From: Sinorhizobium medicae
GTDB lineage: Bacteria; Pseudomonadota; Alphaproteobacteria; Rhizobiales; Rhizobiaceae
DNA: 64,000 nt
Direction of reading: 5' to 3'
Assembly (NCBI RefSeq): GCF_007827695.1
Contig: NZ_VITA01000014.1
Span: 1-64,000, forward strand
Shown here: piece after piece, positions 3,237-57,386 of the stretch
How the letters are laid out: the number at the start of each line of letters is the position of its first letter
How positions within the stretch are numbered: the stretch's first letter is position 1
Translations under genes and position numbers: made by a program
Notes under the pieces: generated by a model
What the model was told of the DNA's origin: nothing
Database searches by the model: none
What the model saw: only the letters and a program-made list of their open reading frames with translations

Positions 3237-3339
3237 TTTTACGGCCCAAGAGATTGACAACTCGACTCCGGCAATGGTTGGGCGTAGGCAATTCCAGGCC
3301 CGGGGGAGTATGCGCGGGATCCTTGATGCCGTTGTGATA

Positions 3340-9833: not shown

Positions 9834-10415
9834 ATGAAAACATCCGGGATTTTCGGGGCTGCGGCCGTTTTCTTATTGCTTGCGGCATCGCCCGCATTCG
9901 CGGCCAATGAGTGCCCCGGGGCTAGCCAGATGCCCTGGAGGGACTACCGCGGCGGGTCATTAGTCGCGCCCACGCCGGAGGAACGGCACGACGTGATAGA
10001 CCTGCTCTCCCAATATGCATGGACGATGGACAACCGCGATTTCAACGGACTGGCCGCTTTGTTCGTAGACACGGGGCAATACTTTCACTGCGATCCGGGC
10101 GATGTGAATGCCGTGCTCGCTATCTCGGCAGGATCGCTGGCCAAGCAATTCCAGACGATGTTCGCTAATCTCGCAGCTACGAACTCCATCGCCACCCGCC
10201 TGCTTAGCAACATCCTGATTGGGAAGAGGGAAGACGGCACCTTCGAGGTTGCTTTGACGGTCCAAGTGACAATTCAGACGATCGGGGTCAGCGCGGCACA
10301 ACTCGACTACATGGCCAAGATATACGCGACTATAAAAAAAGACGGAGATCTGATGAAGTTCCTCACCCTCAAGGTCGCTCCGTTCCAGTCCGGCATACAG
10401 GCCAGCGCGCGTTGA
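9834..10415 (+). CDS. Secreted SnoaL-like (NTF2-fold) protein
   Basis: A 193-residue protein. The start at 9834 follows a strong GGAGGGGG ribosome binding site and gives a textbook signal peptide (IFGAAAVFLLLAASPAFA). The mature part contains EERHDVIDLLSQYAWTMDNRDFNGLAALFVDTG, the typical first helix and strand of the SnoaL/NTF2 cone fold, which covers cyclases, isomerases and small ligand binders. The catalytic Asp/His set cannot be assigned. Its stop lies 33 bases before the secreted dihaem protein, so the two probably form an operon and both act in the periplasm. Confidence 0.75.
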   Translation: MKTSGIFGAAAVFLLLAASPAFAANECPGASQMPWRDYRGGSLVAPTPEERHDVIDLLSQYAWTMDNRDFNGLAALFVDTGQYFHCDPGDVNAVLAISAGSLAKQFQTMFANLAATNSIATRLLSNILIGKREDGTFEVALTVQVTIQTIGVSAAQLDYMAKIYATIKKDGDLMKFLTLKVAPFQSGIQASAR

Positions 10416-10448
10416 CCATCTGCGCGGCGGCAAACGAGGGAAGGCAAC

Positions 10449-42205: not shown

Positions 42206-42533
42206 CTGAGTATCCCCAAGCAGGCGAAGCAGAGGCAACGCCGATTTTCCGGCACCCGGACAGGGTGTCAGCCAGACTATATAAAATCTACTATATCTGT
42301 AGATAGAGTGTAATTCCAAAGTCCGAGGCTTTTCTGAAAAAAGCTACTCAGGACACTCCGTTTGCCGCGTCCCCCGGGCTCCCCATGGAGAGGGTGACAC
42401 GACGACAAAACTGGTTCGATGGAGGAAAAGTTCTCGTTTGGACGTGAGCGCGACAATCCATCCCAATATCCGCCGGCAAAACGCAATCGACAAAATAGAT
42501 TATCTACATGCTTGCTTATCGAATGAGTTCTCC
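42206..42533. other. Divergent control region between the binding protein and the LLM remnant
   Basis: About 330 bases, AT-richer than its flanks around 42280-42310. It contains a perfect 6-bp inverted repeat (see the entry at 42286). No coding frame is supported, although a plus-strand frame runs from 42438 into the broken LLM gene. Confidence 0.5.
42286..42304. promoter_or_regulatory. Inverted repeat upstream of the solute-binding protein gene
   Basis: ATCTAC and GTAGAT form a perfect 6-bp inverted repeat around TATATCT. It sits in an AT-rich patch 81 bases upstream of the binding-protein start and could be a LysR- or TetR-type operator. No regulator gene is adjacent. Confidence 0.35.
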
Positions 42534-43630
42534 ATGCGCCCCGAATTCATCGGCCATACATCCAACCGAAGGGTCAGACATTGTGCCCGCCTCCGGGCCG
42601 GTCATCGACAAGGCCTATATCCGCAATCATGTTCAGCCGGCGGAAGCGGCGGGCATCGACCGTCTGCTCATCGGTCAATTTGCGCAATGGCCCGACAACA
42701 ACCAGATCGCGGCCTATGTCTTCGGCCAGACCGCGCGGCTCGGGGGCGCTGCTTGCCCACCGGCCTGCCTGATGGCCCCAACGCTCGACGCGCGCCAGCT
42801 TGCCACGCTCGATCAGTTCTCCGAAGGCCGCTTGTGGGTCCATATCATCACCGGCGGATCGAACGCGGAGCGGGCCCGCGACGGCGATTTCGAGGATCCC
42901 CACACTCGCTATGCCCGCACCGATGAATATCTGCAGGTACTGAAGAAGGTCTGGGAGAGCGACCGGCCTTCGATCATGAGGGGCGCTTCTACAGGTTCAA
43001 GGGTGCCTTCAGCCAGGTGAAACCCTACCAGAAGCCGCGCATCCCGATCTCTTTCGGCGGTTCGTCAGACGCGGCGATCGCAGTCGCCGGCAAGCATGCG
43101 GATATTTACGCGCTCTGGGGCGAACCCCTCGACGGCGCGAGGGAAACCATCGCCAAGATGCGGGCCGCGGCGCTCGGCAACGGTCGTGCCGCCGAGGATA
43201 TCCGCTTCACCCTCGCCTTCCGCACCGTCGTGGCTGATACCGAAAACGCCGCTTGGGCAAAGGCCGTGGATATCCTTGAAAAGATCAAATCGCAGGTTGC
43301 GCGTTCTACCGGTGGCAATGGCGAGAAACTGCCGTCAAATGTCGGTTCCGTGCGCCTGCGGGAGGCCGCAAGCCGCGGCAAGGTTTTGGACAAGCGGCTC
43401 TGGACCGAAGTCGCGGAAGCAAGCGGTGCCGGCGGAAACTCGACGACCCTAGTCGGCACACCCGAACAGGTCGCCGACGCCATCCTCGACTACTGTGACG
43501 CCGGCGTTACAAACTTCCTTGTCCGGGGTTTTTACCCGACGGAGGATACCGTCACCTATGGCCGCGATGTCGTGCCGCTCGTCAAGGCCGGGATCGCCGA
43601 ACGCGAAGCCAGAAAGGTTGCCGCCGATCG
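42534..43630 (+). pseudogene. LLM-class flavin monooxygenase (SsuD-like), frameshifted twice
   Basis: Starts MRPEFIGHTSN at 42534. The next block GSDIVPASGPVIDKAYIRNH to PAEAAGIDRLLIGQFAQWPD is in a second frame, and after about 42965 the third block FDHEGRFYRFKGAFSQVKPY and the remainder (RIPISFGGSSDAAIAVAGKH, then LVGTPEQVADAILDYCDAGV) is in another. Joined, this is a complete SsuD/alkanesulfonate-monooxygenase-type protein of about 365 residues, which cleaves C-S bonds of sulfonates using reduced flavin. Two single-base changes break it. The quality of the rest suggests either very recent decay or sequencing error. Confidence 0.75.
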
Positions 43631-44584
43631 ACCGCGCCGCTCGATATCGTCGACATCCATGCCCATCTCTGGCCGCCCGCCTGGCGCTCGGGCGGCAGAT
43701 ACGAAAAACCTGCTGGCGCATTTTCGCCGGAGATCCATCGAAAGATCGCCACGCCCCGGCGCTCGTCGATGAACTTGAGCAAAGCGGCGTATCGCTTGCC
43801 GTGGTCAGGGCGACGATCGAAAGCCTCTTCGGAATGGAAGGAAACGTACCGCTAACGGCCGTCAGGGAGGCCAACGACTGGCTCGCAACGCTTTCTCGCG
43901 AGCATCCGACGCTCACTGGGTTTGCCGTCGTCGATGCCTTCGCCGGCGAGGAAGCGGCCCGCGAGGCCGAATGGGCGATCGTCGACCTCGGTCTGACTGG
44001 CCTGGTGATCGACAGTTCGCGCGACGGCAAGCTCATCGCCGATCCCTCAGCCCGACCAACCCTCGACGTCGCGGCACGGCACAAGGTTCCAGTTTTCGTG
44101 CACCCGGTCGCCCACCCAAACGCCGAGGTCCTGAACGGTACCGGCAATCTCGGCAACTCGCTCGGCGTGGTTTGATGAACGGCGTCGCATTCCTGTCGGT
44201 GATCCAGTCGCCAATTCTTGACGAACTGGCGGACCTGCATCTGGTCTTTGCGACCCTCGGTCTTGGCGCAATCGTGCAGGCGGCGCGCGGCGGCATCTAC
44301 GCTCGCGCAGAGCGGGCCCTGGGACGGCGGCCCAACACTACTTCGATACGATGGGGCATGATCCGGACATCGTCCGAACGCTGACCGGTTTCTTCGGTGC
44401 GGAACGGGTGCTTGCCGGTACGGATTGGCCGATCCTTGCAGTGCTCAACGGACACGAATTGCGACAGAGCCTGGCGCAGGCCGGGTTGAACGAGCGCGAG
44501 GCGGGTCTCGTTGCCGGCGGCAATGCCCGGCGCCTCCTCGGCTGCGGCACGATCAAGCGGCGTCTGCTGAATAGGCCCCGGTAA
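43631..44584 (+). pseudogene. Amidohydrolase-family (TIM-barrel metal hydrolase) gene, multiple frameshifts
   Basis: Pieces in different frames line up with an amidohydrolase related to aminocarboxymuconate-semialdehyde decarboxylase. DIVDIHAHLWPPAWRSGG carries the metal-binding HxH. LVDELEQSGVSLAVVRATIE and DVAARHKVPVFVHPVAHPNA carry a further His. LMNGVAFLSVIQSPILDELA comes next, and finally FFGAERVLAGTDWPILAVLN carries the metal-binding Asp. At least three indels are needed. It follows the LLM remnant with no gap and was probably translationally coupled. The strong terminator at 44590 lies 6 bases after its stop. Confidence 0.7.
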
Positions 44585-44662: not shown

Positions 44663-45724
44663 TCAGGCGACGCGCTGCGAACGGGCAAGCGGAATGATCT
44701 CGGCTTCCGCCGCTCCGAAATGCGGTTCGCGGCCCTCGAGCGGGTGGCCTGGATCGGTGAAGCCCGGAGTCGACGGATGGCCGGGCGCGACCAGCCGATC
44801 GACCAAAGCCTCGTCTTCCGCATCAAGCTTGACATCGAGGGCGCGGATATAGGCGTCCCAATGCTCTTCCGTGCGTGGTCCTGCGATTGTCGAGGTGATC
44901 AGCCGGTTGTTCAGCACCCAGGCGAGCGCGAAATCGGCGGAAGCAATGCCCTTGGCTTGAGCGTGCGCGGCAATCTGCTTAGCGATCGCGATCGATTCTT
45001 CGCGAAACTCGACGTCATGCATGCGCTTGTCGCCACGGCCGGCGCGGGTATCGGCGGCTGGGGCTTCGCCGGGATTATACTTGCCCGTCAGAACGCCGCG
45101 GGCGAGCGGGCTGTAGGACACAGCACCAAGTCCATAGGCGGCAGCTGCCGGCAACTGCTCCGCTTCGGCGGTGCGGTTGACGATGTTATAGAGCGGCTGG
45201 CTGGCGATCGGCCGGTCAATGCCGAGCCGGTCGGCGAGATGGGCGACTTCCGCAATGCGCCATCCCCGGAAATTCGAGACCCCGAAGTAGCGCAGTTTGC
45301 CGGCCTTGATCAGGTCGGCGATCGCCCGTACCGGCTCTTCGAGCGGCGCATCGAAGACGGCGCGATGGAAATAGAGGATGTCGATATAGTCGGTGCCGAG
45401 ATTGCGCAGCGAGTTCTCGATCGTCTGATACACCCACTTGCGCGAATAGCCGCCTAGGTTCGGTCCCTTCGCACGCGAATTGACGAACTTCGTCGCCACC
45501 ACCCAGTGGTCGCGGTTGGACTTGATACCGCGCCCGACCACCTCTTCCGACTTGCCGTCGTGGTAGACATCCGCCGTGTCGATGAAGTTGATGCCCTGTT
45601 CGCGCGCCTTGTCGATGATGCGGAAGGCGACGTCGTCCGGCGTTTGGTTGCCGAACATCATGGACCCCAGTGTCAGCGGCGACACTTTAAGGGCGCTGCG
45701 CCCAAGATAGCGATACTCAACCAT
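44663..45724 (-). CDS. Aldo/keto reductase
   Basis: A 353-residue TIM-barrel NAD(P)H oxidoreductase. The catalytic tetrad is visible as FIDTADVY (Asp and Tyr), VVATKF (Lys) and DILYFHR (His). The phosphate-binding C-terminal loop is TIAGPRTEEHWDAYI. It belongs to the bacterial group close to YajO/Tas-like general aldehyde or ketone reductases. It is the last gene of the ABC transporter operon, 14 bases after the second ATPase, so it may reduce a carbonyl product of the imported compound. The cofactor is probably NADPH, by family. Confidence 0.88.
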   Translation of the reverse strand: MVEYRYLGRSALKVSPLTLGSMMFGNQTPDDVAFRIIDKAREQGINFIDTADVYHDGKSEEVVGRGIKSNRDHWVVATKFVNSRAKGPNLGGYSRKWVYQTIENSLRNLGTDYIDILYFHRAVFDAPLEEPVRAIADLIKAGKLRYFGVSNFRGWRIAEVAHLADRLGIDRPIASQPLYNIVNRTAEAEQLPAAAAYGLGAVSYSPLARGVLTGKYNPGEAPAADTRAGRGDKRMHDVEFREESIAIAKQIAAHAQAKGIASADFALAWVLNNRLITSTIAGPRTEEHWDAYIRALDVKLDAEDEALVDRLVAPGHPSTPGFTDPGHPLEGREPHFGAAEAEIIPLARSQRVA

Positions 45725-45738: not shown

Positions 45739-46683
45739 TCAATTGGTCTGGTCCGCGACATGACAGGCCACCTGGTGGCCGGGCTTGATGGAGCGGAATT
45801 CGGGATCGGCGACACGGCAAAGCTGGGTCGCCAGCGGGCAGCGGGTGTGGAACCGACAGCCCGACGGAATGTTGCTCGGGCTTGGCAAATCGCCGCCGAG
45901 GGGAGCCGCCTGCCGCGGCCGCGACGGATCGGGAACGGCGGCCATCAGGGCGCGCGTGTAAGGATGGCGCGGGTCCGACCACAGCGTCTCGTTGTCGGCG
46001 CTTTCGACGATCCGGCCGAGATACATGACCAGCACCCGGTCGCAGAAATAGCGCACCACCGACAGGTCATGGCTGATGAAGAGATAGGAGAGACCAAACT
46101 CCTTCTTCATCTCCACCAGAAGGTTCAGGATTTGTGCCTGGATCGACAGGTCGAGCGCCGAAACGGGCTCGTCGCAGACGATCAGATCCGGATTGAGCAG
46201 AAGCGCGCGGGCGATGCCGATCCTTTGCCGCTGGCCGCCAGAGAATTCGTGGGGATAGCGATTGATGGCGTCGGCAGGCAGCCCCACCTTGGCAATGATG
46301 CCGGCGACGGTGCGACGGCGCGCCGGCCTATTGCCGGCCTTATGCACGATTAGCGGCGCTTCCAGGATTTCACCGATCGTATGTCGCGGATTGAGCGACG
46401 CGAACGGATCCTGGAAGATCATCTGGATCGACTTGCGAACGTTTCTGAGCCGACCCTGATCGAGTGTCGTGATGTCCTCGCCCTTGAACTCGATCCGCCC
46501 CTCGGTCGGATCGACCAGGCGCAGAAGCGTCTTGCCGAGCGTCGACTTGCCGCAACCGCTTTCGCCGACAAGCCCGACCGTCTCGCCACGCTCGACCACG
46601 AGATCGACGCCATCGACCGAACGCAGCAGTCCGTCGCGCGTCTTGTAGTGCGTCTTGAGATCAGAGGCTAAGATGAGCGGCAT
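45739..46683 (-). CDS. Peptide/nickel-type ABC transporter ATPase, second subunit (OppF/DppF-like)
   Basis: A 314-residue ATPase; the start at 46683 ([13 protein letters not shown]) overlaps the previous gene by 23 bases and removes a non-conserved extension. It has Walker [10 protein letters not shown], the Q-loop region [13 protein letters not shown], the signature [18 protein letters not shown], Walker [13 protein letters not shown] and the switch His in FISHDLSVV. The C-terminal oligopeptide-family region with clustered Cys ([13 protein letters not shown]) is present. It pairs with the ATPase at 46661 to drive import through the permeases upstream. Confidence 0.93.
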
Positions 46684-47668
46684 CAGGGACGGCCTTGAGG
46701 GACGAGGTGAACGGGCAGGCAACAAGGCGATCCGGCGTTTGAGCAATCAAGGGCGGCACCTGATGGCCGCAGCTCGCGCGCGCCTGGCAACAGCGCGGCC
46801 TGAAGGGACAGCCGACCTCGCCTGCCGCCGAGACGATCGAACCCGAGATCTCGGTCAGCGGACCTTCCAAATAGTGAAAGTCGTGCTTCAAGCGCGGCGA
46901 GGCCGAAAGCAGCCCGCGCGTATAGGGATGCAGCGGATCGTTGAAGAGCTCGCCGGGCAAGGCCTGCTCTACCTTACGGCCGGCATACATGACGACGACC
47001 CTGTCGGCCCATTGTGCGACGACGCCGAGATCATGGGTGATCAGCACGACCGCCATCTGCAGTTCACGTCGCAGGGTGTCGAGCAGGTCGAGCACCTGCG
47101 CCTGGATCGTTACATCCAGCGCCGTCGTCGGTTCGTCTGCTATCAGCAGTTTCGGCCGGCAGGCAACTGCCATGGCGATCATGACCCGCTGCCGCATGCC
47201 GCCCGACAGTTGGTGCGGATAGTCGTCGACGCGTTTTTCGGCGGCCGGTATGCGCACGAGCTTCAAAAGCTCGATCGCCCGTTCTCGCGCCGCCCTGCCA
47301 GACAGCTTTTCATGCGCCTTCAGCACTTCACCGATCTGGCGACCGATCGACATGACCGGATTGAGGCTCGTCATCGGCTCTTGAAAGATCATTGCGATGT
47401 CGCGCCCGCGCAAGTGTCGCATCTCGCGCGCATCGAGACCCAGAAGATCGCGGTCATCGAAGATAATTCGGCCGCTGATGACAGCTGCTGCACGCGGCAG
47501 CAATTGCATCAAGGCGAGTGCCGTCAGCGATTTGCCGGAACCGGACTCTCCGACGATCGCCAGCGTCTCGCCTGCCCTTACCTCAAAAGACAGGTTGCGG
47601 ACCGGTTCGGCGCGCGGAAAGCCAATAGTGAGGTTCTCGACCTGAAGCAGCAGCGACGTCATCGTCAA
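46661..47668 (-). CDS. Peptide/nickel-type ABC transporter ATPase, first subunit (OppD/DppD-like)
   Basis: A 335-residue ATPase with Walker [23 protein letters not shown], signature [18 protein letters not shown], Walker [13 protein letters not shown] and ITHDLGVV. The C-terminal extension carries the family cysteines ([17 protein letters not shown]). The start overlaps the stop of the permease gene upstream by 4 bases and its 3' end overlaps the second ATPase, the pattern of a tightly coupled operon. Confidence 0.93.
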
Positions 47669-48663
47669 CGATCCTGCGTGAAGCGGGGGTTGAGGGCGTC
47701 GTTCAGCCCATCACCGATGAGGTTGAGCGCAAGCACCGTGAAGACGATCGCCAGACCCGGAAGGGCTGTCAGATACCAGGCGGTTCGGACCAGTTCGCGG
47801 CCAGTGCCGATCATCGAACCCCAGCTCACGACGTTCGGGTCGCCAAGCCCCATGAAGGACAGCGCCGATTCCATCAGGATCGCCGTTGCGACCATGACCG
47901 ATGAGGTGACGATGATCGGGGGCAGCGCGTTCGGCAGGATCTCGCGGAAGATGATCCGCCCGTGACCAAACCCGAGACTGCGGGCGGCCATGACGAAGTC
48001 CTTCTCGCGGATCGTACGAAACTCGGCCCTGGTCAGTCGCGCGACCGTCGGCCAGGAGATGACGGCGATTGCAAGCGTCACCGTGGTAGCCGAGGGCTGG
48101 ACGATCGCGACAAGCACTACGAGAAGCACGAAGCTGGGCAAGGTCTGGAAGATTTCGATGAGCCTGACCAGGAGATCGTCGACCCAGCCGGCGAAGTAAC
48201 CGGCGATCGCGCCGACGAACACTCCGAAGGTGAGACTGAGCGCTGTCGCCATCAGCCCCACGAACAGGGAGATGCGCGAACCGTGCAGAATGCCGGCCAG
48301 CACGTCCCGCCCGAGCGAATCCGTGCCGAGCGGGAAGGTCGGATCCTGGCCCGGCCACAGGAACGGCTTTCCGACCATCGAAAGGGGGTCGTCGGGATAG
48401 AGCACTGGGGCCAAAAGCGCGACAGCGATGACGAGTGCAAGGAATGCAGTGCCAAACAGCGCGTTGGGGTTGGCGAGGAAGACCTTCAGCGCCCGTCGCC
48501 CATTCGTAAAAGCGACCGCAGCGGTTGGCTGGGAACGCGCGTCGGGCGCCTTCACGTTGGACCAGGCTGGACGTTCCGGCGCGGTCGCCTGCTCGCTCGT
48601 CGCCGGAGCAGCATAGGCGCCGCCCGTGACAGCCGGAAAAGCCCCGAAGTCGGTGGTGGACAT
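47665..48663 (-). CDS. ABC transporter permease, OppC/DppC-like
   Basis: A 332-residue inner-membrane protein. The start at 48663 overlaps the stop of the first permease by one base (TGATG). An unusually long hydrophilic N-terminus of about 60 residues, rich in Ala and Pro, precedes the first membrane segment (GTAFLALVIAVALLAPVLYP). The permease loop motif (EFRTIREKDFVMAARSLGFG, coupling helix) and C-terminal ALSFMGLGDPNVVSWGSMI are standard for the family. Confidence 0.92.
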   Translation of the reverse strand: MSTTDFGAFPAVTGGAYAAPATSEQATAPERPAWSNVKAPDARSQPTAAVAFTNGRRALKVFLANPNALFGTAFLALVIAVALLAPVLYPDDPLSMVGKPFLWPGQDPTFPLGTDSLGRDVLAGILHGSRISLFVGLMATALSLTFGVFVGAIAGYFAGWVDDLLVRLIEIFQTLPSFVLLVVLVAIVQPSATTVTLAIAVISWPTVARLTRAEFRTIREKDFVMAARSLGFGHGRIIFREILPNALPPIIVTSSVMVATAILMESALSFMGLGDPNVVSWGSMIGTGRELVRTAWYLTALPGLAIVFTVLALNLIGDGLNDALNPRFTQDR

Positions 48664-49649
48664 CAGCGCGCTCCAATTCGAGGGTCGAGCCAGGCGTGGA
48701 CGAGGTCCACTGCGGCGTTCGCAATGATAACAAGAAGAGAGGACAGGAGCAGGATGCCGAGCAATACGGTGAAATCTCGGCCCATGACCGCCTCGAAGGC
48801 AAGCCTGCCGAGACCCGGCCAACTGTAGACTGTTTCCACCACCACGGCGCCGCCGAGCATGCCGCCGATATGCATCCCGGCCATGGTCGTGATCGGGATC
48901 AGCGCATTGCGCAGAATGTGCCTCGCCGTCACGCCAAACGGCGTCAACCCCTTGGCATAGGCAGTGCGCACGAAATCCTGGCTTTTGACTTCGAGCATGG
49001 CTGCACGGGTCAGCCGCGCATAGATCGCAACGTAGAACAGCGCGAGCGAGGTCGCCGGCAGCACCATGTAGCGTGCCGTGTCGAAGAGCGCCGGCAAGCC
49101 TTTCAGCTGGGAACCGATGGTGCCCGCGCCGCCGCTCGGCAGCCAGCCGAGCTTGATCGAAAAGAGCACGATCAGCATCAGACCAATCCAGAAGCTCGGG
49201 ATCGAATAGAAAAGCAGCGAGAACACCGACAGCACGCGGTCAGGGATCCGCCCCGCAAAGTTTGCCATCAGCGATCCCAGGACGATGCCGAGAAGGATCG
49301 CGATCAAGAGGGCCACAGCCATCAGGGTCAGTGTGCCCGGAAGGCGCTGGGCAATCAGGTCAGCGACCGGCATGCCGTAGCGCGGTGAAAATCCGAGGCT
49401 GAACTGGGCGAGGTTGCCCAGATAGGTCGCCAATTGCTCGAGTACGGGGCTGTCCAGCCCGAAGCGGGCTCTTAGCGCAGCGACACTCTCTTGCGTCGCC
49501 GATCCCGCCTCGCCGGCCAGAACATCCGCCGCGTCGCCAGGTGCCAGCTGCAAAAGGAAGAAATTCAGGACCACAATTCCGAGAATCGTCGGAACCGCCT
49601 GCAGAAGCGTTCGTCGAAGCGTTCGCGCAATTCTGATTAGCACCGGCAT
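48663..49649 (-). CDS. ABC transporter permease, OppB/DppB-like
   Basis: A 328-residue inner-membrane protein that starts with a membrane helix (LLQAVPTILGIVVLNFFLLQLAPGD) and has six segments in all. The coupling helix region EVKSQDFVRTAYAKGLTPFG and the C-terminal VVETVYSWPGLGRLAFEAVM are signatures of OppB/DppB. It is the first gene of the operon, divergent from the desulfinase-type operon across about 300 bases. Confidence 0.93.
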   Translation of the reverse strand: MPVLIRIARTLRRTLLQAVPTILGIVVLNFFLLQLAPGDAADVLAGEAGSATQESVAALRARFGLDSPVLEQLATYLGNLAQFSLGFSPRYGMPVADLIAQRLPGTLTLMAVALLIAILLGIVLGSLMANFAGRIPDRVLSVFSLLFYSIPSFWIGLMLIVLFSIKLGWLPSGGAGTIGSQLKGLPALFDTARYMVLPATSLALFYVAIYARLTRAAMLEVKSQDFVRTAYAKGLTPFGVTARHILRNALIPITTMAGMHIGGMLGGAVVVETVYSWPGLGRLAFEAVMGRDFTVLLGILLLSSLLVIIANAAVDLVHAWLDPRIGAR

Positions 49650-49947
49650 CGATGTCGCCTCTCCGTTTGGCTGTCCGCAAACAGCGAACCTTCACCTCGG
49701 CCTGACGTTTCGCCGCGGATGATTTTTATAGTTGACTAATTACATAGTCTTTGTCAAATTTATTTTGGTAATTTCACCCTGCAACTTGCCAGATCCAGGA
49801 ACTGCATTTCCGTATTTTACGAAATCCGCTCACATTGTGGAATAGTAATCCTACCTTAGTACAGCCCATTGCAATGACCGACTAAGAAGCGGCGCTCGAA
49901 CGAAAAACGCTTCCCGGCACACCCCATCAGAGACAGCGGAGAAAACT
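49650..49947. promoter_or_regulatory. Divergent promoter region of the transporter and desulfinase-like operons
   Basis: Almost 300 bases, strikingly AT-rich between about 49725 and 49860 compared with its GC-rich flanks. It must hold both promoters. Within it is the inverted repeat listed at 49732. Shared control of uptake and catabolism from this region is likely, but no regulator gene is adjacent. Confidence 0.55.
49732..49757. promoter_or_regulatory. Nested inverted repeats in the divergent region
   Basis: GACTA (49734-49738) and TAGTC (49745-49749) form a perfect inverted repeat around six A/T-rich bases. An outer pair TTGAC (49732-49736) and GTCAA (49753-49757) repeats the idea. These are candidate operators for a sulfur- or substrate-responsive regulator such as a LysR-type protein; the regulator is not in the window. 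Confidence 0.4.
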
Positions 49948-50988
49948 GTGACGCGTAAAAATGCCATCTCACAAATCTGGTACACCCGCTGCCCTGTCCC
50001 GACACCAGTGGGCCTTGCCACCCAGCTTGGTCTTCTCGACACGGCATTTGCCGCCGAGGGCATCACGCTCAACTCCATCATCGACAGCAAGGATCGCTCC
50101 ATCCGGTCCAGCCACTTCGATCACCATCTCGACTATTCGTTTCGCCATGGCGGCAATGTCCCGCCGGTCCGCGCCCGCTCGGAAGGCAACCCGACGCGGC
50201 TTGTCGGCATCACATGGACCGATGAGTTCCAGGCCATCATCACGTTGCCGGGCACCGGCATCAAAACGACACGCGACCTTTTTGGCCGGCGCTTCGGCAT
50301 TGCGCGCCGTCCGCCAGGCATCGTCGACTTCATGGCCGCCACCGCGCTGAAAGGCCTTGTTTCCGCACTGTCGCTCGAAGGGCTCGCACCCTCCGATGTC
50401 GAGATCGTCGATATCCCGCTTTCCGAAAGCGTGCTCGATGGCAGAGAGGGTCCCCAGCTCTACGGCCTGCGCAACCGTCAAGCCTATGGCCCCGAAATCG
50501 CCGCGCTGCTGCGCGGCGAGGTCGACGCAATCTATGTCAAAGGTACGCCCGGCATTGCCGTGGCCAATCTCTTTGCGGCCCACATGGTCGCGGAATTCGG
50601 CTTTCACCCCGACCCGAAGATCCGCATCAATTCCGGCTCCCCACGGGTGTTGACCGTCGATGAACGGCTGGCGCAAGACCGCCCCGATCTCGTCGCCAAG
50701 CTGATCGCGACTTTGAAGCAGGCTGGCGCCTGGGCCGAAGAACATCCGGACGAGGTGCGCCGCTTCGTTGCCCGCGAGGTCGGCGCATCCGAAGAGGTCG
50801 TGGCTGCGGCCAACGGTCCGGATCTCCACAAACATCTCGGCATCGGCCTTGAACCGACACTCGTCGAGGCGATCGGGCACTACAAGGACTTCCTGCATGA
50901 ATGGGGTTTCCTGGCGAGCAACTTCGACATCGACACATGGGTCGACCACCGCCCCTGGGCGGAACTCGACATCCGCGCTGTCGCTTGA
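49948..50988 (+). CDS. DszB-like desulfinase homologue 1
   Basis: A 346-residue protein starting at GTG with AGCGGAG upstream. It has the periplasmic-binding-protein-like fold of SsuA/NMT1 proteins but no signal peptide. The active-site residues of the desulfinase DszB (Cys27, His60, Arg70) appear to be matched: Cys15 in YTRCPVPTP (DszB: SNCPVPN), His56 in SSHF and Arg66 in SFRHGGNVPP (DszB: TRFGGEIPP), with the same His-to-Arg spacing of ten residues. It is therefore more likely a cytoplasmic hydrolase releasing sulfite from an organic sulfinate than a transport protein. The substrate is unknown. First gene of the operon. Confidence 0.75.
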   Translation: MTRKNAISQIWYTRCPVPTPVGLATQLGLLDTAFAAEGITLNSIIDSKDRSIRSSHFDHHLDYSFRHGGNVPPVRARSEGNPTRLVGITWTDEFQAIITLPGTGIKTTRDLFGRRFGIARRPPGIVDFMAATALKGLVSALSLEGLAPSDVEIVDIPLSESVLDGREGPQLYGLRNRQAYGPEIAALLRGEVDAIYVKGTPGIAVANLFAAHMVAEFGFHPDPKIRINSGSPRVLTVDERLAQDRPDLVAKLIATLKQAGAWAEEHPDEVRRFVAREVGASEEVVAAANGPDLHKHLGIGLEPTLVEAIGHYKDFLHEWGFLASNFDIDTWVDHRPWAELDIRAVA

Positions 50989-51001
50989 ACGAGAGCAACA
51001 A

Positions 51002-52234
51002 ATGACCGATCCTACACGTTTCGAGGCGGTGATTGCCAAGGCCGAAGAGCTTGGAAACCGCTTCTCCCTGACTGCGCGCCACTACGATGAAACCGGCGAA
51101 TTCCCTTTCGCCAATTTCGACGCGCTCCATGAGGCAGGCCTGCTTGGCCTGGTGACGGCGCCCGAACACGGCGGTCTCGGAGGCGGATTGACGGAGGCGC
51201 TCGCCGTCGTCTCGGCAATCGCCCGCGGCGAGCCCTCGACCGCCCTCGTTCTTTCAATGCACTATAACCAGCACTACTCGGTGCGCACGTCAGGCAAATG
51301 GCCGCCGCACCTTGTCGAGCGTGTTACCAGGGCCAATCGCGAAGGTGTCGCGCTGATCAATGCCGCGCAAGTGGAGCCGCGCGTCGGTTCCCCATCGCAT
51401 GGGTCGTTGCCGCAAACCATTGCGCGGCGCGTTGGCGACCAGTGGCGCATCACCGGCCACAAGACGTATGCGACAGGCATCCCGCTCTTGCGCTGGGTGG
51501 CGGTGCTCGCCGTGACCGACGAGCCGGAGCCGCGACTGGGCTCGTTTCTCGTGCCGACGTCAGCCGATGGCATCCGCGTCGAAAAGACGTGGAACGCAAC
51601 GGGCATGCGGGCAACCAACAGCGACGACCTGATCCTCGATGACGTCGCGATCCCGCTCGAAGATGTTCTCGACATCGCGCCTGCGAGCGAAGGCCTGAAA
51701 CGCGATGAGCGCATGGGTGCCTGGTACTTCAGTCTCGTTCCAGCGATCTACGACGGCGCGGCGCGCGGCGCCCGCGACTGGCTGATCGAGTTCACCACCT
51801 CGCGGGCACCGGCGAGCCTCGGCGCACCGCTTTCGACCGTCCCCCGCATCCAAGACGGCCTTGGCGAGATCGAGGTGCTGCTGACCGTCAATCGCAGGCT
51901 CCTGCGCTCAATCGCCGAGGATTTCGACAGCGGACGCGCCTTCGGCGCCGACGCCGCGGCGGTCAAGCACACGGTCATCGCAAACGCGATCACTGTGACG
52001 ACCCTTGCACTGGAACTCGGCGGCAACCCCGGCATCAGCCGCGACAATCCGCTGGAGCGTCACCATCGCGATGCGCTTTCCGGCAAGGCGCACGCTCCAC
52101 AGAACAACCTCATCCGCACGATGCTCGCCAAAGCCGTGTTCAGCCGCCACGCCGAAGCACCTGCTGTTGCGCTTGAGCCGGTGCCGGTTCGGCCGCACCA
52201 GCAGCCCCGTCTTGCCGTCGTCGGCCGCAGCTAG
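51002..52234 (+). CDS. DszC-like flavin-dependent monooxygenase
   Basis: A 410-residue protein of the acyl-CoA dehydrogenase fold, starting at 51002, 13 bases after the first DszB-like gene. The N-terminal helical domain contains FDALHEAGLLGLVTAPEHGG, the middle beta domain DQWRITGHKTYATGIPLLRW, and the C-terminal bundle LALELGGNPGISRDNPLERH followed by HRDALSGKAHAP, where the His-His-Arg segment marks the flavin site of the DszC/SfnB group. DszC oxidises a thioether to the sulfone with FMNH2 and O2. A reductase to supply FMNH2 is required. Sandwiched between two DszB-like genes. Confidence 0.8.
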   Translation: MTDPTRFEAVIAKAEELGNRFSLTARHYDETGEFPFANFDALHEAGLLGLVTAPEHGGLGGGLTEALAVVSAIARGEPSTALVLSMHYNQHYSVRTSGKWPPHLVERVTRANREGVALINAAQVEPRVGSPSHGSLPQTIARRVGDQWRITGHKTYATGIPLLRWVAVLAVTDEPEPRLGSFLVPTSADGIRVEKTWNATGMRATNSDDLILDDVAIPLEDVLDIAPASEGLKRDERMGAWYFSLVPAIYDGAARGARDWLIEFTTSRAPASLGAPLSTVPRIQDGLGEIEVLLTVNRRLLRSIAEDFDSGRAFGADAAAVKHTVIANAITVTTLALELGGNPGISRDNPLERHHRDALSGKAHAPQNNLIRTMLAKAVFSRHAEAPAVALEPVPVRPHQQPRLAVVGRS

Positions 52235-52244
52235 GAGTTTTACG

Positions 52245-53279
52245 ATGTCTTCCCCCGGTTCCGTCTGGTACACGCGCTGCCCCGCCCCGACCCCGCTGTC
52301 GATCGCCTATCAGCTCGGCTGGCTCGACAAAAAGTTTCTGAACGCCGGCGTTGCCGTGCGCTCGATCCGCGACAGCAAGGATCCGTCGGTCCGGCAGAGC
52401 CACTTTACTCATGCGCTGGATTACTCGTTCCGGCAGGGCGGCAACATTCCACCGATCTGGGCGCGATCCGGCGGTCGCGAGACACGCGTCGTCGGCATCA
52501 CCACGACAGACGAGTTCCAGGCAATCATCGCGCTCCCAGGTTCCGGTATCGCTGTGGCGAAAGACTTAAAAGGGCGCCGCATCGGCGTGCCGCGCAAGCC
52601 CAATTCCGACGTCGTCGATTTCCAGCGGGCCACCGCATTGAAAGGCATCGTCTCGGCGCTTTCGCTCGGCGGGCTCGATCACCGAGATGTCGAACTCGTC
52701 TACCTCGACACCAACGAAGGCGATCTGATCGAACGCGGCAATGGTGCCTTCCTGGGCTTGAAGCGTCGATATCCCTATGGCGACGAACTTTTGGCCCTGG
52801 CCTCCGGCAAGATCGACGCCTTTTTCGTCAAAGGTGCCGAAGGCATCGTGCTCGCCAATCAGATCGGTGCAGTGGTGGTGGCAGAATTCGGCTTCCATCC
52901 GGATCCGACGATCCGCATCAACAATGGCACGCCGAGACCACTGACGGTCGACGCCCGCTTTCTTGACGAGCATTTCGATCTCGTCGTCGATCTCGTAGCG
53001 ACGGTTGCGGGCGTCGGCGACTGGGCGACTTCCAACCCCGATACCGCGGTTCGGTTCATCGCCAACGAGATCGGCGTTGGCGCGGATGCCGTCTGGGCAG
53101 CAAACGGCCGCGACGTCTATCGCCATCTGGCACTGAAGTTGGATCAGGACCAGATCGCCGCCTTCGACCACTTCAAGCGCTTCCTTCTCGATTGGAGCTT
53201 CATTCCTGCCGACTTCGACGTCTTCGGCTGGATCGACGGGCGGCCGCTGGAGGCCGCATTGCGGCGGTCAGCCGCATGA
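52245..53279 (+). CDS. DszB-like desulfinase homologue 2
   Basis: A 344-residue paralogue of the protein at 49948. The start follows an AGGAG ribosome binding site. The triad is again present: Cys12 in YTRCPAPTP, His53 in QSHF and Arg63 in SFRQGGNIPP, ten residues apart. The two proteins share long blocks (GITTTDEFQAIIALPGSGI; ALKGIVSALSLGGL; VVAEFGFHPDPTIRIN) and no signal peptide. Two copies flanking one monooxygenase suggest duplication followed by specialisation, or a heteromeric enzyme. The stop overlaps the next start (ATGA). Confidence 0.75.
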   Translation: MSSPGSVWYTRCPAPTPLSIAYQLGWLDKKFLNAGVAVRSIRDSKDPSVRQSHFTHALDYSFRQGGNIPPIWARSGGRETRVVGITTTDEFQAIIALPGSGIAVAKDLKGRRIGVPRKPNSDVVDFQRATALKGIVSALSLGGLDHRDVELVYLDTNEGDLIERGNGAFLGLKRRYPYGDELLALASGKIDAFFVKGAEGIVLANQIGAVVVAEFGFHPDPTIRINNGTPRPLTVDARFLDEHFDLVVDLVATVAGVGDWATSNPDTAVRFIANEIGVGADAVWAANGRDVYRHLALKLDQDQIAAFDHFKRFLLDWSFIPADFDVFGWIDGRPLEAALRRSAA

Positions 53280-54154
53280 GCATTCGACCGAGCCTCGTGA
53301 CCGGCGCCACAGGCAAGCTTGGGCGGCTGATCGTCGAACGACTGGTCGCGCTCGGGCAGCCGGTCCGCGTCTTCACCCGACGCCCTGAAACGGCCCGTAG
53401 CCTGTTCGGCGAGACCGTGCAGATCGCCACCGGCGACTTCGGTGACCGAGCCTCGCTCGAAGCGGCTGTTGGCGGCGTTGGACGCCTTCTCCTGCTGTCG
53501 CCTATCAGCACGAGGCTCGTCACCGATCAGATCGCCGCCGTGGATGCCGCGGTCGCCGCAAACACTAAGCGCATCGTCAAGATTTCGGGCTCCGACTGGA
53601 CGATCGAACCGGCAGGCAATTCGATATCGGGTGCCGCACACGCGGCCGTGGAGCAACACCTCAACAGCCTTCCCGTCGAAACGGTTTCGCTTCGGCCCAA
53701 TGCCTGGATGCAGGTCTCGCTGGCCAACACAATCACGCGGGCCATAACGAGCAGCCAGGTCATCGCACCCAACCTTAGTGCCGGCATTGGCTATATCGAT
53801 GCGCGCGACATTGCCGACGTCGCCGTGCATCAGCTGCTTGCCGACCGTATCCGCGGTCGCACGCTCAACATTACTGGCCCGGACATCGTATCGTTCAAGC
53901 AGATCGCTGCCCTGTTAACGGCGGCGTTGGACCGGCCGGTTGCCGCACTCGAGAAGCCGCCCCAGGCCGCTTCTGGCGATGGTGACTTCGAGCATCGCGC
54001 CGTTGCGCAATTCGTAAGGTTGATCGCAGCCGACCGCGCCGCGGTGACGACCGACGTGGTGCCAACGCTTCTCGGCCGTTCGCCCCGTACCGTCGCCGAC
54101 TTCATACTGGAACAGGTCGCCGCAGCGACGGCGATCCCGGAGTATCAGCCGTGA
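53276..54154 (+). CDS. NmrA-like NAD(P)-binding protein
   Basis: A 292-residue Rossmann-fold protein. The nucleotide site is VTGATGKLGRLIVERLVALG, followed by VRVFTRRPETARSLFG. The rest matches NmrA/SDRa5-type atypical short-chain dehydrogenases such as quinone reductase QorB-like proteins (VSLRPNAWMQ; IGYIDARDIADVAVHQLL; LNITGPDIVSF). There is no clear Tyr-xxx-Lys catalytic pair. It might reduce a quinone or a carbonyl of the desulfurised product. Coupled to both neighbours by 4-base overlaps. Confidence 0.8.
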   Translation: MSIRPSLVTGATGKLGRLIVERLVALGQPVRVFTRRPETARSLFGETVQIATGDFGDRASLEAAVGGVGRLLLLSPISTRLVTDQIAAVDAAVAANTKRIVKISGSDWTIEPAGNSISGAAHAAVEQHLNSLPVETVSLRPNAWMQVSLANTITRAITSSQVIAPNLSAGIGYIDARDIADVAVHQLLADRIRGRTLNITGPDIVSFKQIAALLTAALDRPVAALEKPPQAASGDGDFEHRAVAQFVRLIAADRAAVTTDVVPTLLGRSPRTVADFILEQVAAATAIPEYQP

Positions 54155-55401
54155 ACATACCCTTTGTTGACGTCGCCATTATCGGTGGAGGTCCGGGTGG
54201 GCTCGCCCTGGCGCAGGGCCTGAAGAAGAACGGTATCGACACTGCCGTCTTCGAGCGCGACCCTATCCGGGCGGACTATGTACAGGGTTTTCGCATGCGC
54301 ATTCGCCAGCGCGGCATCGATGCCCTCAGAGCCAACCTACCACCGCATCTCTATCAGGCGTTCCTCGACACGCTTGGGATTGCTCCGACCGAGAGCCTGA
54401 TCCTCGACGAAAGGTTCAACCGGCTGGAGGACGCGGGCCAAACACCCCGTGAGCCCGAGGATACCCATATCGAGAAGTCGGTCAGCCGCATCACGCTGCG
54501 GCAGATCCTTTTGTCCGGGCTCGACCGCATCTTCCAAACTGGCAAGCGGTTCGAGCGATACGAAACGCTCGCGGACAACACTGTAGTCGCGCATTTTTCC
54601 GACGGCTCGGCCGTGCGTGCTAATTTGCTGGTCGGCGCCGACGGCGCCGGATCGGCGGTCCGCCGCCAGCTCCTGCCAGACCTCAGGAGCATCGACACGG
54701 GCGTCCGCCGGCTGGCCGGCAAGATCACGCTCGACGCAGCGGCGCGCCATAACATTTCGCCGCTGCTGACGGAATTCAACACGAATATCCGCCCGCGCGA
54801 CGGTCGTGGCCTGATGATCACGAGCCATCGGGTCGATCCATCCGCCTACGCCCGTCACGATCTCATCGGCAGCGAAGATCCCGGCCATGCCGACATCTCC
54901 GGCTTCCACTTCAACAATTCCACCAGCTACACCTGGTGGAACACGGCCTACGACACGGATGAGCTCGGGCTGGACACTGTTCTCGAAACGCTCGATGGCG
55001 CCGCCCTGCTCGCAACGCTCCTTCGCCGTATCGGTCACTGGGACGAGCGGATCCTAAAGGTCATCCGCTACAGCGACCCATCGACGGTCGCTTTCCTCAG
55101 GGTCAAGAGTTCCACTCCTGGGGCCGTATGGCAAAGCGGTCCGGTGACACTGCTCGGCGACGCGATCCACGCGATGACCTATTTCCGCGCGCTTGGCGGC
55201 AACACCGCCCTCTATGATAGCGGATTGCTCGTTCGCGAGCTTGTCGCCGCACGGCGCCATGGCAAGCCACCGCTTGCCGCCGTGAACGACTACGAAAAGG
55301 CCATGCGCGAGCACGGCTACGAGGCCGTGCGTTCCTCCCTTTCAGCCATGCAACGCAATGTCGGCGCCAATCGGCCGCTGAAGTCCATACCTGCCCTCTA
55401 G
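54151..55401 (+). CDS. FAD-dependent aromatic-type monooxygenase
   Basis: A 416-residue flavoprotein starting at a GTG that overlaps the previous stop. The FAD dinucleotide site is AIIGGGPGGLALAQGLKKNG, the middle DG motif is LLVGADGAGSAVRRQLLP, and the GD motif is VTLLGDAIHAMTYFRALGGN. The layout is that of single-component group A hydroxylases (UbiH/PHBH and TetX relatives), which hydroxylate phenol-like or polyketide rings using NAD(P)H. In this operon it could act on an aromatic ring before or after sulfur removal. The substrate is not predictable. Confidence 0.82.
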   Translation: MNIPFVDVAIIGGGPGGLALAQGLKKNGIDTAVFERDPIRADYVQGFRMRIRQRGIDALRANLPPHLYQAFLDTLGIAPTESLILDERFNRLEDAGQTPREPEDTHIEKSVSRITLRQILLSGLDRIFQTGKRFERYETLADNTVVAHFSDGSAVRANLLVGADGAGSAVRRQLLPDLRSIDTGVRRLAGKITLDAAARHNISPLLTEFNTNIRPRDGRGLMITSHRVDPSAYARHDLIGSEDPGHADISGFHFNNSTSYTWWNTAYDTDELGLDTVLETLDGAALLATLLRRIGHWDERILKVIRYSDPSTVAFLRVKSSTPGAVWQSGPVTLLGDAIHAMTYFRALGGNTALYDSGLLVRELVAARRHGKPPLAAVNDYEKAMREHGYEAVRSSLSAMQRNVGANRPLKSIPAL

Positions 55402-55418
55402 CCTCAGGAAAAATGATC

Positions 55419-56069
55419 ATGTCCATCGTCGTCTTCGGCGCTTCCGGAAACATCGGCAGCGACATCCGCAAGGAGGCCTTGTCGCGCGGGCACCGCGTGA
55501 CAGCCGTGACGCATTCCTCAGAGCTGGAGCCTGCCGAACGCCTCACGGTGCTGAAGGCGGATATCGCCGATCCGGAGGAGGTGGCAGGAATCGTCGGCGG
55601 TCACGATGCGGATATCAGCGCCTACGGCCCCGGTCTGCGCAGCCATTCGGCGGAGAATGCCGCTGTTCTCATCGAGAAAGCCCAAGTTTCCCTGTTCGAA
55701 GGCGTCAAGCGCGCCGGCGTCCGCCGCATCATCATTGTCGGCGGGGTCGGTAGCCTGAAGGCAAGCCCCGGCGTCGACGTGGTCGACAGCGATTTTTACC
55801 CCGCGGATCACAAGGCCCACACACTGCGCAACCGGGAGATCCTGCGCAGCCTGAAGCGTGGAGACCATGACCTCGACTGGACCTATGTCTCCCCGCCTCT
55901 ATCCATCAAGGCGGGCGAACGAACCGGCCGTTTCAGGCTCGGCGAAGATGCGCTTCTGCGTGACGAAGCAGGTGAGAACCGCATCTCCGAAGCCGATTTC
56001 GCCATCGCCATACTCGATGAACTCGAGAAGGGACAATCCATCCGCCGCCGCTTCACCGCGGCCTATTGA
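55419..56069 (+). CDS. NAD(P)-dependent oxidoreductase, atypical SDR
   Basis: A 216-residue Rossmann-fold protein. I choose the ATG at 55419 because it stands nine bases after AGGA, whereas the ATG at 55413 is too close. The nucleotide site is VVFGASGNIGSDIRKEALSR, and the later IIIVGGVGSLKASPGVDVVD is typical of the NAD(P)H-binding YwnB/SDRa5 group. The protein is about the size of flavin or biliverdin reductases of this fold, so a role supplying reduced flavin to the monooxygenases is a possibility worth testing but only an inference. Confidence 0.75.
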   Translation: MSIVVFGASGNIGSDIRKEALSRGHRVTAVTHSSELEPAERLTVLKADIADPEEVAGIVGGHDADISAYGPGLRSHSAENAAVLIEKAQVSLFEGVKRAGVRRIIIVGGVGSLKASPGVDVVDSDFYPADHKAHTLRNREILRSLKRGDHDLDWTYVSPPLSIKAGERTGRFRLGEDALLRDEAGENRISEADFAIAILDELEKGQSIRRRFTAAY

Positions 56070-56084
56070 AGGACCTTCAATCGC

Positions 56085-57386
56085 ATGCCCCGCAAGCTCA
56101 ATCTGAATGTCGGAATCAACACTACCGGTTATCTGCCGGCAGCGTGGAAGTATCGAAGCGGCAACCGCCACGACATCTACGACCCCGGCTACTACAAGCG
56201 CCTGACAGAACTCGCCCATCGGGGTCTGTTCGACGCGGTGTTCTTTTCCGATCATCCCGCATTGATGACCGATCCGAATAGCCGTCCATTCCATACCATT
56301 GACCCGCTGATCCTCTGTACGGCGCTCGCAGCGCAGGTGCCCGATATCGGCTTCGTCGCAACGATGTCCTCCACCTACAACTCGCCGTACAACCTGGCCC
56401 GCCGGACCCAGTCGACGGACATCGTTTCGGGCGGGAGGCTGATCATCAATATCGTCTCGTCCTTCAACCCGAACGTGGCGGCTAACTTCGGCTCCGCACC
56501 GCTGCCTTCGCGCAGCGAGCGCTATGCGAAGGCCTCCGAATTTCTCGACGTGGCCAAGAAGCTCTGGGCGAGTTGGGACCCGTCTCGGGAAGGCCCAGTG
56601 CCCAACGAGCAGTTTTGGGATGCAGCAAGTGCTCATGCGATCGACCATGTAGGCGATCATTTCACGGTCAAGGGACCGCTGAATGTTCCCCGCGGCCCGC
56701 AAGGCCATCCGGTCGTTGCGCAGGCAGGCGCGTCCGAGGGCGGCATCGAACTCGCCGCCCGCCATGGCGAGATCATCTATTGCAACATCCTCTCCCGCCC
56801 AGCCGGCCAGGCCTTCGGCAAGAAGGTCAGGGATCGCGCTGCACGCCTCGGCCGCGACCCCAAGGGCATCCGGATCGTGCCCGGGGTGGTAGTGATCCTC
56901 GGCGAGACAAAAAAGGAAGCACTGCGTAAACACGAGCTCTTCAGCGGCGCAGGTTCGGAAGACGGTCTGATCGCGCGGTTCATAAAGGAGAACGGCATCG
57001 ATCCGGATGGTTTCAATCCGGATGCAGTGCTCGACGCCGAACGCTTCATCCCGGATCCCAACCGTCTGCAGGCGGTCGGAATGGGGTTGGGGCTTTCCGA
57101 TCTTCTGACGCATGAGAAATTGACGACAAGACAGGTGGTACGTCGCTCTGAGGGCCATCATCGGCTACTGCTCGGGACCGCAGAAGAGGTGGCTGATGCG
57201 CTCATTGATTTATGGGACGACGGCACCGTCGACGGCTACACGCTTCAGCCGCCACGAGCACCCGATGATATCGAGGAATTCGTGGACAAAGTAGTCCCGA
57301 TCCTCCAGGACCGCGGAGTTTATCGCAGCCGCTACGAGGAGCGCACCGTCCGCGAACGCTACGGGTTGCCTTTTCCTGCACATTAA
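56085..57386 (+). CDS. DszA/NtaA/SnaA-family flavin-dependent monooxygenase
   Basis: A 433-residue member of the bacterial luciferase superfamily, NtaA/SnaA/DszA branch. Recognisable pieces are YYKRLTELAHRGLFDAVFFS, GFVATMSSTYNSPYNLARR, TDIVSGGRLIINIVSSFNPN with VAANFG following, RYAKASEFLDVAKKLWASWD, LNVPRGPQGHPVVAQAGASE and the C-terminal DDIEEFVDKVVPILQDRGVY. DszA converts dibenzothiophene sulfone to a sulfinate, the substrate of DszB, using FMNH2. As last gene of the operon it completes a DszC-DszA-DszB-type set. The substrate of this version is unknown. Confidence 0.85.
   Translation: MPRKLNLNVGINTTGYLPAAWKYRSGNRHDIYDPGYYKRLTELAHRGLFDAVFFSDHPALMTDPNSRPFHTIDPLILCTALAAQVPDIGFVATMSSTYNSPYNLARRTQSTDIVSGGRLIINIVSSFNPNVAANFGSAPLPSRSERYAKASEFLDVAKKLWASWDPSREGPVPNEQFWDAASAHAIDHVGDHFTVKGPLNVPRGPQGHPVVAQAGASEGGIELAARHGEIIYCNILSRPAGQAFGKKVRDRAARLGRDPKGIRIVPGVVVILGETKKEALRKHELFSGAGSEDGLIARFIKENGIDPDGFNPDAVLDAERFIPDPNRLQAVGMGLGLSDLLTHEKLTTRQVVRRSEGHHRLLLGTAEEVADALIDLWDDGTVDGYTLQPPRAPDDIEEFVDKVVPILQDRGVYRSRYEERTVRERYGLPFPAH

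Follow-up and report, generated by a model that had tools for sequence, protein, structure and literature searches.

A candidate importer-coupled sulfur-scavenging system with two DszB-type proteins in Sinorhizobium medicae

Why would a rhizobium carry, in a single operon, enzyme classes that recall the desulfurisation of dibenzothiophene? The question is raised by a stretch of Sinorhizobium medicae DNA (contig NZ_VITA01000014.1, positions 1 to 64,000; this whole stretch of 64,000 nt is called the window here, and the host genome measures 6.53 Mb), in which seven co-directional open reading frames (ORFs) occupy 49948-57386 of the + strand. An initial annotation, whose ORF coordinates are used here, had read them as an operon with DszA-, DszB- and DszC-type enzymes, a candidate pathway for the cleavage of a C-S bond. 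The layout that it described, with 4-base overlaps or short gaps, was confirmed (spacings of 13, 10, -4, -4, 11 and 15 bases), and the Pfam classes in operon order are NMT1, acyl-CoA dehydrogenase, NMT1, NmrA, FAD_binding_3, NAD_binding_10 and Bac_luciferase. In our view the operon and its neighbours probably form a sulfur-starvation scavenging pathway, which imports an organosulfur compound and cuts its C-S bond.

B1 (49948-50988, + strand, 346 amino acids (aa)) and B2 (52245-53279, + strand, 344 aa), the two NMT1-class proteins, are 53% identical to each other and are predicted from their sequences to be desulfinases of the DszB type. The only sequences of the Protein Data Bank (PDB) matched by either at E ≤0.001 were the DszB entries 2de2/2de3 (2.2e-14 for B1 and 1.1e-13 for B2). 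In DszB, C27 is essential, H60 and R70 lie in the active site, and RXGG is a conserved motif of the homologues (PMC6100217). The Cys, His, Arg and RxGG are all kept in the alignment of both proteins, C15, H56, R66 and G68G69 of B1 corresponding to C27, H60, R70 and G72G73, and C12, the sole cysteine of B2, to C27. The lone cysteine of B1 is likewise that of the catalytic site, and exactly one cysteine is present in 90/94 relatives. In a 43-row residue table, Cys, His, Arg and GG were present in 30 of the 32 family rows, DszB among them, whereas the Cys, His or Arg of DszB occurred in 0/11 binding-protein-like rows. Ser25, the partner of H60 in DszB, is replaced by Thr in 30/31 relatives. The two family rows that depart from the pattern are a Devosia paralogue (L034:1849-2895, Cys to Ser and His to Tyr) and a paralogue on a Sphingobium plasmid (L111:4426-5517, His to Asp); judging by these residues, both are possibly non-catalytic relatives.

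A different explanation is that B1 and B2 bind the substrate for an ABC importer of sulfonates or thiamine precursors, in a cluster that serves transport and oxidation without desulfination. It has in its favour that both proteins exceed the Pfam NMT1 cut-off of 20.5 bits (B1 with 38 bits, B2 with 28.5 bits) and are publicly annotated as 'ABC transporter substrate-binding protein', and that the fold of DszB is also the fold of SsuA and TauA, the TM-scores of the B1 model (AlphaFold2, mean predicted local distance difference test (pLDDT) score of 89) overlapping accordingly. The initial annotation had itself named a phylogeny placing the pair with transport proteins as the outcome that would speak against it. 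In our tree DszB joined the B1/B2 family instead (support 94/84 at an unstarred node, with long branches), but a tree with DszB among the binding proteins was not rejected (approximately unbiased test, p 0.153); the tree held 43 of 125 sequences after thinning, and four long binding-protein rows of an earlier quick tree were omitted. Nevertheless, we regard binding proteins as a very unlikely explanation, as the catalytic residues are kept in the family and missing from the binding-protein-like rows, and the importer next to the operon is of the Opp type rather than the Ssu type and has its own OppA. The single cysteine is, moreover, retained in the family despite a sulfur-poor composition. 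On TIGR01728 (cut-off 163.5 bits) B1 and B2 scored 72.3 and 64.0 bits, much like the annotated DszB of pMyong1, which is also under the cut-off with 65 bits. Foldseek with the B1 model placed DszB first (1.4e-20), followed by TauA/SsuA (about 1e-15; 1.2e-15), and the first strand of the model lies at residues 9-14, where the alignment begins, which would leave no room for a leader peptide. Hydropathy was non-discriminating, with a value of ≥1.8 in 0/94 relatives (range 0.39-1.58) and in only 2/6 control binding-protein ORFs, some of which are perhaps mis-picked frames; the OppA value was low because the ORF used begins ahead of the true start. A role as transport binding proteins was thus rejected on the DszB sequence matches, the active-site residues and the predicted lack of leader room, and, as far as sequence can tell, B1 and B2 are DszB relatives and not transport proteins, in keeping with the two DszB-like proteins of the initial annotation. 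A literature search on rhizobial sulfinate desulfinases returned nothing relevant, and we know of no natural role for the wider DszB family.

The divergent importer that had also been noticed is present on the minus strand, with an OppB-type permease (48663-49649), an OppC-type permease (47665-48663), OppD-type (46661-47662) and OppF-type (45739-46683) ATPases and, as the last gene of the importer operon, an aldo-keto reductase (AKR, 44663-45724). The starts of OppC, OppD and OppF follow the annotation of strain ml29, a longer OppC ORF (47665-48822) also existing. Further left on the same strand are an OppA-type (SBP_bac_5) binding protein (40571-42205), whose RR-type leader was judged by eye, and an SfnB-like oxidoreductase of the acyl-CoA dehydrogenase (ACAD) fold (39249-40472). 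The system exceeds the operon, as OppA, the SfnB-like gene and the AKR belong to it. This goes beyond the initial annotation, and so do the low Cys+Met content of the proteins, the conserved element resembling an operator and the published derepression, all described below. A scan of 84,980 species genomes for the desulfinase motif WYTxCPxP gave at least 593 pattern matches, with at least 585 confirmed relatives. Neighbourhoods were counted in the best 80 of these at least 585 loci at ≥40% identity, best meaning closest to B1, so that near relatives are favoured, and loci on incomplete contigs count as misses. OppA was found in 79, OppB+C+D in 73, the AKR in 72, C (the ACAD-fold protein encoded after B1) in 72 and the SfnB-like gene in 66, with C after B1 in 63/80. 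B2, the FAD hydroxylase and the luciferase-like monooxygenase (LLM) of the operon accompanied B1 in 12/80, and the gene order of the operon is identical on pSymA of S. meliloti 1021; the arrangement is therefore not due to chance. The form seen in the window (B2 with most of the NmrA, FAD, NAD(P)-binding and LLM genes) occurs in Ensifer, Neorhizobium, Xaviernesmea, Devosia and Chelatococcus, and the conserved core is found in Rhizobium, Agrobacterium and Comamonas as well, with OppA between OppB and B1 in most Rhizobium and Agrobacterium loci. Within the order, 9/397 sampled genomes had a B1 match at 1e-10, two of them binding-protein-like by residues. No fitting ligand was named among the solved relatives of OppA; an importer of the Opp type argues for a polar natural compound as the substrate.

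The composition of these proteins bears on what the pathway is for. The numbers of Cys+Met per 100 aa are 0.87 in B1, 0.98 in C, 0.29 in B2, 0.34 in the NmrA protein, 1.20 in the FAD hydroxylase, 0.46 in the NAD(P)-binding protein and 1.16 in the LLM enzyme, and, outside the operon, 0.85 in the AKR, 1.23 in the SfnB-like protein and 0.52 in OppA. For comparison, 241 ORFs (201 soluble) were taken from 400 kb of the host genome by a filter on GC content at third codon positions (GC3) rather than by annotation. The seven operon proteins pooled have 0.82, against a mean of 3.22 in the 201 soluble ORFs; none of 20,000 random seven-ORF sets was as low (minimum 1.54), and among 125 runs of seven consecutive genes the minimum was 2.35. 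Taken singly, B1, B2, C, the NmrA and NAD(P)-binding proteins, the AKR and OppA were each equalled by 0-3 of the 201 soluble ORFs. Paralogues in the host genome are richer, with a median of 2.28 and a minimum of 1.10 for OppA (19 measured of 22, three being without a locus), a median of 2.31 and a minimum of 1.23 for the AKR (n=11), and 4.2-5.3 for the dehydrogenase-type relatives of C (n=4, without L133, in which C had no match). The true SfnB of the host genome (L137) has 0.28 and its other LLM protein, near an SsuA-family match, has 0.69. Orthologue medians elsewhere are 0.58 for B1 (80 copies), 0.57 for the AKR (71) and 0.37 for OppA (110), and DszA, DszB and DszC are also low in Cys and Met (PMC8557817). 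Such a composition is expected of proteins made under sulfur shortage, and the extreme depletion therefore points to sulfur acquisition. Comparison with paralogues of the same genome could serve as a cheap general test for sulfur-starvation proteins.

The divergent promoter region contains an operator-like imperfect palindrome of 27 bases, GTTGACTAATTACATAGTCTTTGTCAA (49731-49757, no strand assigned). Its best match covered 21-27 of the 27 bases in 71/71 compared intergenic regions. The matrix built from these also found the element in L058, outside the set, and no other site of like score in the relatives' loci that were scanned (L028-L097, without L098-L107). The host genome has one copy at ≤3 mismatches and none of the reversed control; 100 shuffles of the window gave 0 matches, and the matrix scan of the window gave the known site only. 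No regulator gene was pinned down; only some of the relatives' loci share a LysR regulator, an Rrf2 regulator and a flavin reductase, 7-10 kb from B1. In the second divergent region, between OppA and the LLM remnant (window about 42150-42580), no clear copy of the element was seen; this region and its relatives have conserved stretches of their own, ATCTACTAAnTTTATCGA and AAAACGCAATCGACAAA.

On pSymA of S. meliloti, two divergent operons, sma2085-2077 (five genes) and sma2087-2101 (eight genes), are specifically up-regulated when pSymB 635,940-869,642 is deleted (PMC5940162). The corresponding S. meliloti 1021 locus has five ORFs on the left (OppB, OppC, OppD, OppF and AKR) and eight on the right, C being split, and we match the two operons to it by this divergent five/eight-ORF pSymA layout and not by an annotation table. 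The sole pSymB match over cut-off for a sulfate-binding protein (771,909-772,835) and the sole one for CysA (769,419-770,138) both lie within the deleted interval; the host genome of the window has one CysA and two sulfate-binding proteins over cut-off. SMb21132 and SMb21133 of pSymB are described as putative sulfate transport genes (PMC2912261). The simplest reading of the derepression is sulfur limitation, and together with the sulfate-transport genes inside the deleted interval it gives a second line pointing to sulfur acquisition. The available part of PMC5940162 contained no explanation of the derepression, and the literature that was searched gave no other paper on the operon.

If the desulfinases are of the DszB type, are the monooxygenases those of the 4S pathway? 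C (51002-52234, + strand, 410 aa) had been called DszC-like, which is a loose label. Its nearest PDB sequences are 5z8t (2.5e-61) and 5gj7 (3.7e-61), far ahead of TdsC (1.4e-12) and DszC (1.2e-8). Its structural model (pLDDT 84) matched first 5z8t, titled 'Flavin-containing monooxygenase' (1.2e-26), and second 5gj7, titled as a putative acyl-CoA dehydrogenase, with TdsC ranked 45th; a literature search on both entries found nothing relevant. The score of C on the DszC equivalog NF043015 was 40.4 bits (cut-off 850 bits), and on SfnB TIGR04022 (cut-off 430.9 bits) C reached 102 and the SfnB-like protein 275 bits. C was therefore rejected as an orthologue of DszC or SfnB, by profile scores, PDB ranks and its position in the tree, in which rows L130, L131 and L132 are wrong-strand ORFs picked by length and were given no weight. 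The glutamate of the YEGT motif, present in two dehydrogenases of the same genome (L129 and L133), is absent from C, which has KAHAPQ instead. In isovaleryl-type enzymes the catalytic base is held elsewhere, and the missing glutamate is a hint, not proof, from the sequence that C is a monooxygenase. H87 and H364 are invariant among 25 C proteins and align with DszC histidines; the position of H87 is also a His in L128, and that of H364 is a Gln in the true SfnB. No literature on the DszC residues was found. Overall, C is probably a flavin monooxygenase of the ACAD fold that is only distantly DszC-like.

The 'DszA-like' protein (56085-57386, + strand, 433 aa) is a flavin mononucleotide-dependent LLM monooxygenase of the NtaA/DmoA/EmoA/DszA family, with 380 bits on TIGR03860 (cut-off 279.7 bits). 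Membership of the family thus stands, but its closest solved relative is EDTA monooxygenase (5dqp, 5.5e-93), followed by YtnJ (2.6e-64) and DszA (3.2e-55), and the gene was rejected as a DszA orthologue, being EmoA/NtaA-like before it is DszA-like. The group A FAD hydroxylase (54151-55401, + strand, 416 aa; best solved relative 4hb9, 5.4e-44) and the two Rossmann reductases were confirmed by Pfam. The latter are an NmrA-type NAD(P)-binding reductase (53276-54154, + strand, 292 aa) and an NAD(P)-binding_10 protein (55413-56069, + strand, 218 aa), which is a candidate flavin reductase by the names of its solved relatives, 2/6 being called putative NADH-flavin reductase. The likeness to EDTA monooxygenase, and the suggestion of aromatic catabolism given by the FAD hydroxylase and NmrA reductase, would also suit an operon in which the group taken off by the DszB-like enzymes is not a sulfinate, as in protodecarboxylation, and an N- or carboxyl-rich aromatic compound is degraded for C or N. 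Against this, sulfur starvation is indicated by the extreme Cys+Met depletion and by the SfnB-like partner, and no ring-cleavage gene was noted among the annotated genes of the window, in which not every ORF is annotated; we consider this explanation quite unlikely.

Compared with dszABC of the 4S pathway in Rhodococcus, Gordonia and Mycobacterium (the pMyong1 copy was used), the operon shares the DszB-type catalytic residues, the combination of ACAD-fold and LLM monooxygenases in one operon, and sulfur-poor proteins (PMC8557817). It differs in having two desulfinases, in its order of B-C-B-..-LLM instead of A-B-C, in a C and an LLM enzyme that are not orthologous to DszC and DszA, and in the extra FAD hydroxylase, the reductases and the dedicated Opp-type importer. 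The dszA-dszB-dszC order plus flavin reductase that marks a 4S operon is not seen here, since the order is different and the flavin reductase is a candidate only. The DszB reaction has been described as the slowest in biodesulfurisation (PMC4839641). The bdsABC operon of Gordonia terrae C-6, up-regulated with benzothiophene as sole sulfur source, likewise combines a desulfinase, a flavin monooxygenase and an alkanesulfonate-monooxygenase-type gene (PMC3868597); compared by description and not by sequence, it is an actinobacterial operon of three genes without an importer. Five organic-sulfur clusters have been catalogued in Sinorhizobium, among them ssuDABCE and tauRABCXD (PMC4053727), which serve organosulfur acquisition in the same species and include proteins of the substrate-binding fold but have Ssu/Tau-type importers with exported binding proteins; judged by gene content, the cluster in the window is outside the five described in the available text. 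With the SfnB family it shares the ACAD fold and, through the true SfnB of the host, the sulfur-poor composition, whereas both its SfnB-like protein and C are under the family cut-off. EmoA and NtaA cleave C-N bonds, while the context of their relative in the window is one of sulfur.

From the gene classes, active-site residues, co-conservation, composition and conserved element, all computed directly, we infer a series of reactions, their order, a substrate type, a role for the element and a link to sulfate supply. OppA and OppBCDF would import a polar organosulfur compound. The flavin monooxygenases C and LLM, probably with the SfnB-like protein, would oxidise its sulfur and cleave a first C-S bond, so that a sulfinate is formed, and B1 and B2 would free sulfite from this unsaturated or (hetero)aromatic sulfinate, their single cysteine acting as proton donor. 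Reduced flavin may come from the NAD(P)-binding_10 protein, while the FAD hydroxylase, the NmrA reductase and the AKR would process the carbon skeleton. Both divergent operons could be controlled jointly from the one conserved element. The initial proposal of C-S cleavage by 4S-like logic in an importer-linked rhizobial operon is supported to this extent, without a specifically DszA-type LLM enzyme or a DszC, and so is its suggestion that the substrate is probably not dibenzothiophene.

Several observations weigh against a sulfur-scavenging pathway, in addition to the shared fold and the unrejected tree discussed above. The FAD, LLM and SfnB-like proteins are only moderately sulfur-poor (8, 7 and 8 of the 201 soluble ORFs are as low or lower), and OppBCDF show no depletion. 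The homology of C to DszC is weak, C falls outside the DszC/SfnB clade, its two DszC-like histidines are not discriminating and a third dehydrogenase of the same genome (L128) also lacks the YEGT glutamate, so C may act otherwise than by S-oxidation. The window is without the intact SsuD-like LLM gene found in relatives, and the single genomic copy of the element is unlike a global sulfur regulon. The sma operons were matched by layout only, which leaves room for other such divergent pairs on pSymA; the deletion of pSymB covers ~234 kb and many genes, so that a lost repressor could explain the derepression, and smc02350, whose operon has a putative glycine-betaine transporter as its last gene, is likewise up-regulated by the deletion (PMC5940162).

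One substrate lead is given by Sinorhizobium sp. KT55, which desulfurises benzothiophene (PMC3868597, PMC4327732, PMC6630823). The operon could be the counterpart of the KT55 genes, acting on benzothiophene or another thiophene-type compound, as KT55 desulfurisation has been drawn via sulfoxide and sulfone intermediates (PMC3868597), dibenzothiophene desulfurisation is seemingly missing in KT55 (PMC4327732), the operon is frequent among Sinorhizobium plasmid records and its enzyme classes fit. However, benzothiophene, a neutral compound, should scarcely require import by OppA and an Opp system, and a core that is shared by Rhizobium, Agrobacterium and Comamonas speaks for a natural compound that is common. 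We consider such an identity unlikely, although the window does provide candidate genes for benzothiophene desulfurisation in KT55.

The preferred reading remains a scavenging pathway for sulfur, and the evidence supports DszB-type chemistry inside a different, importer-coupled system. Going further, the locus might be a richly equipped form of a widespread and undescribed sulfur-starvation pathway, in which DszB-type desulfinases receive a natural organosulfur compound, unsaturated or (hetero)aromatic, through an Opp-type importer; this wider claim is tentative, and we put it slightly short of an even chance. If true, the 4S pathway known from fossil fuels would represent a single branch of a general and older route by which natural aryl-sulfur compounds are handled. 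The version on rhizobial symbiotic plasmids would then be the form that has two desulfinases, an importer of its own and one operator common to the divergent operons. The scavenging reading proposes a function for the sma2085-2077 and sma2087-2101 operons. The DszB relatives described here form a large family, linked to a conserved importer, and their regulation can be tested in plant symbionts that are tractable.

The replicon can be judged from the window segment 44000-58900, which matches the S. medicae WSM419 plasmid pSMED02 (NC_009621) with 100% identity across 14,901 bases. At least 80% of this segment is present in 52 of 113 matching plasmid records, and B1 has matches in 95 plasmid records, of which 51 are Sinorhizobium. 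Between the OppA and AKR genes, on the + strand, are the broken remnants of an SsuD-like LLM gene (42534-43628) and an amidohydrolase gene (43508-44557), both disrupted by frame changes in the window. The two genes are intact in two Neorhizobium loci (L029 and L030) and were not found at the corresponding place in S. meliloti 1021; the broken genes show that the system has partly decayed in Sinorhizobium.

Variation in the operon was also seen between strains. On pSymA of S. meliloti 1021 the C gene is in two frames (about 19183-20648 of L027), and it matches as two or three pieces in S. meliloti 2011 and five other listed S. meliloti records, the majority of the listed records of this species giving a match in one piece; the split gene calls for caution in mutant work in S. 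meliloti 1021. On pSymA of S. medicae ml29 (L026 19404-20001) the interval between the FAD and LLM genes is shorter than in the window and has no NAD(P)-binding gene in the annotation; the NAD(P)-binding_10 gene may therefore have been lost in this strain.

Other arrangements of DszB-family genes were met further afield. The Sphingobium sp. TomTYG65 plasmid (L111) has three of them at 3073-11308, next to Ssu-type transporter and monooxygenase genes. In L021 and L022, two more distant loci of Rhizobiales, a B gene forms a compact group of three with one SfnB-type and one NtaA/DmoA-like gene, and in L022:6323-10394 the three ORFs overlap by 4 bases, a layout closer to dszABC than that of the window.

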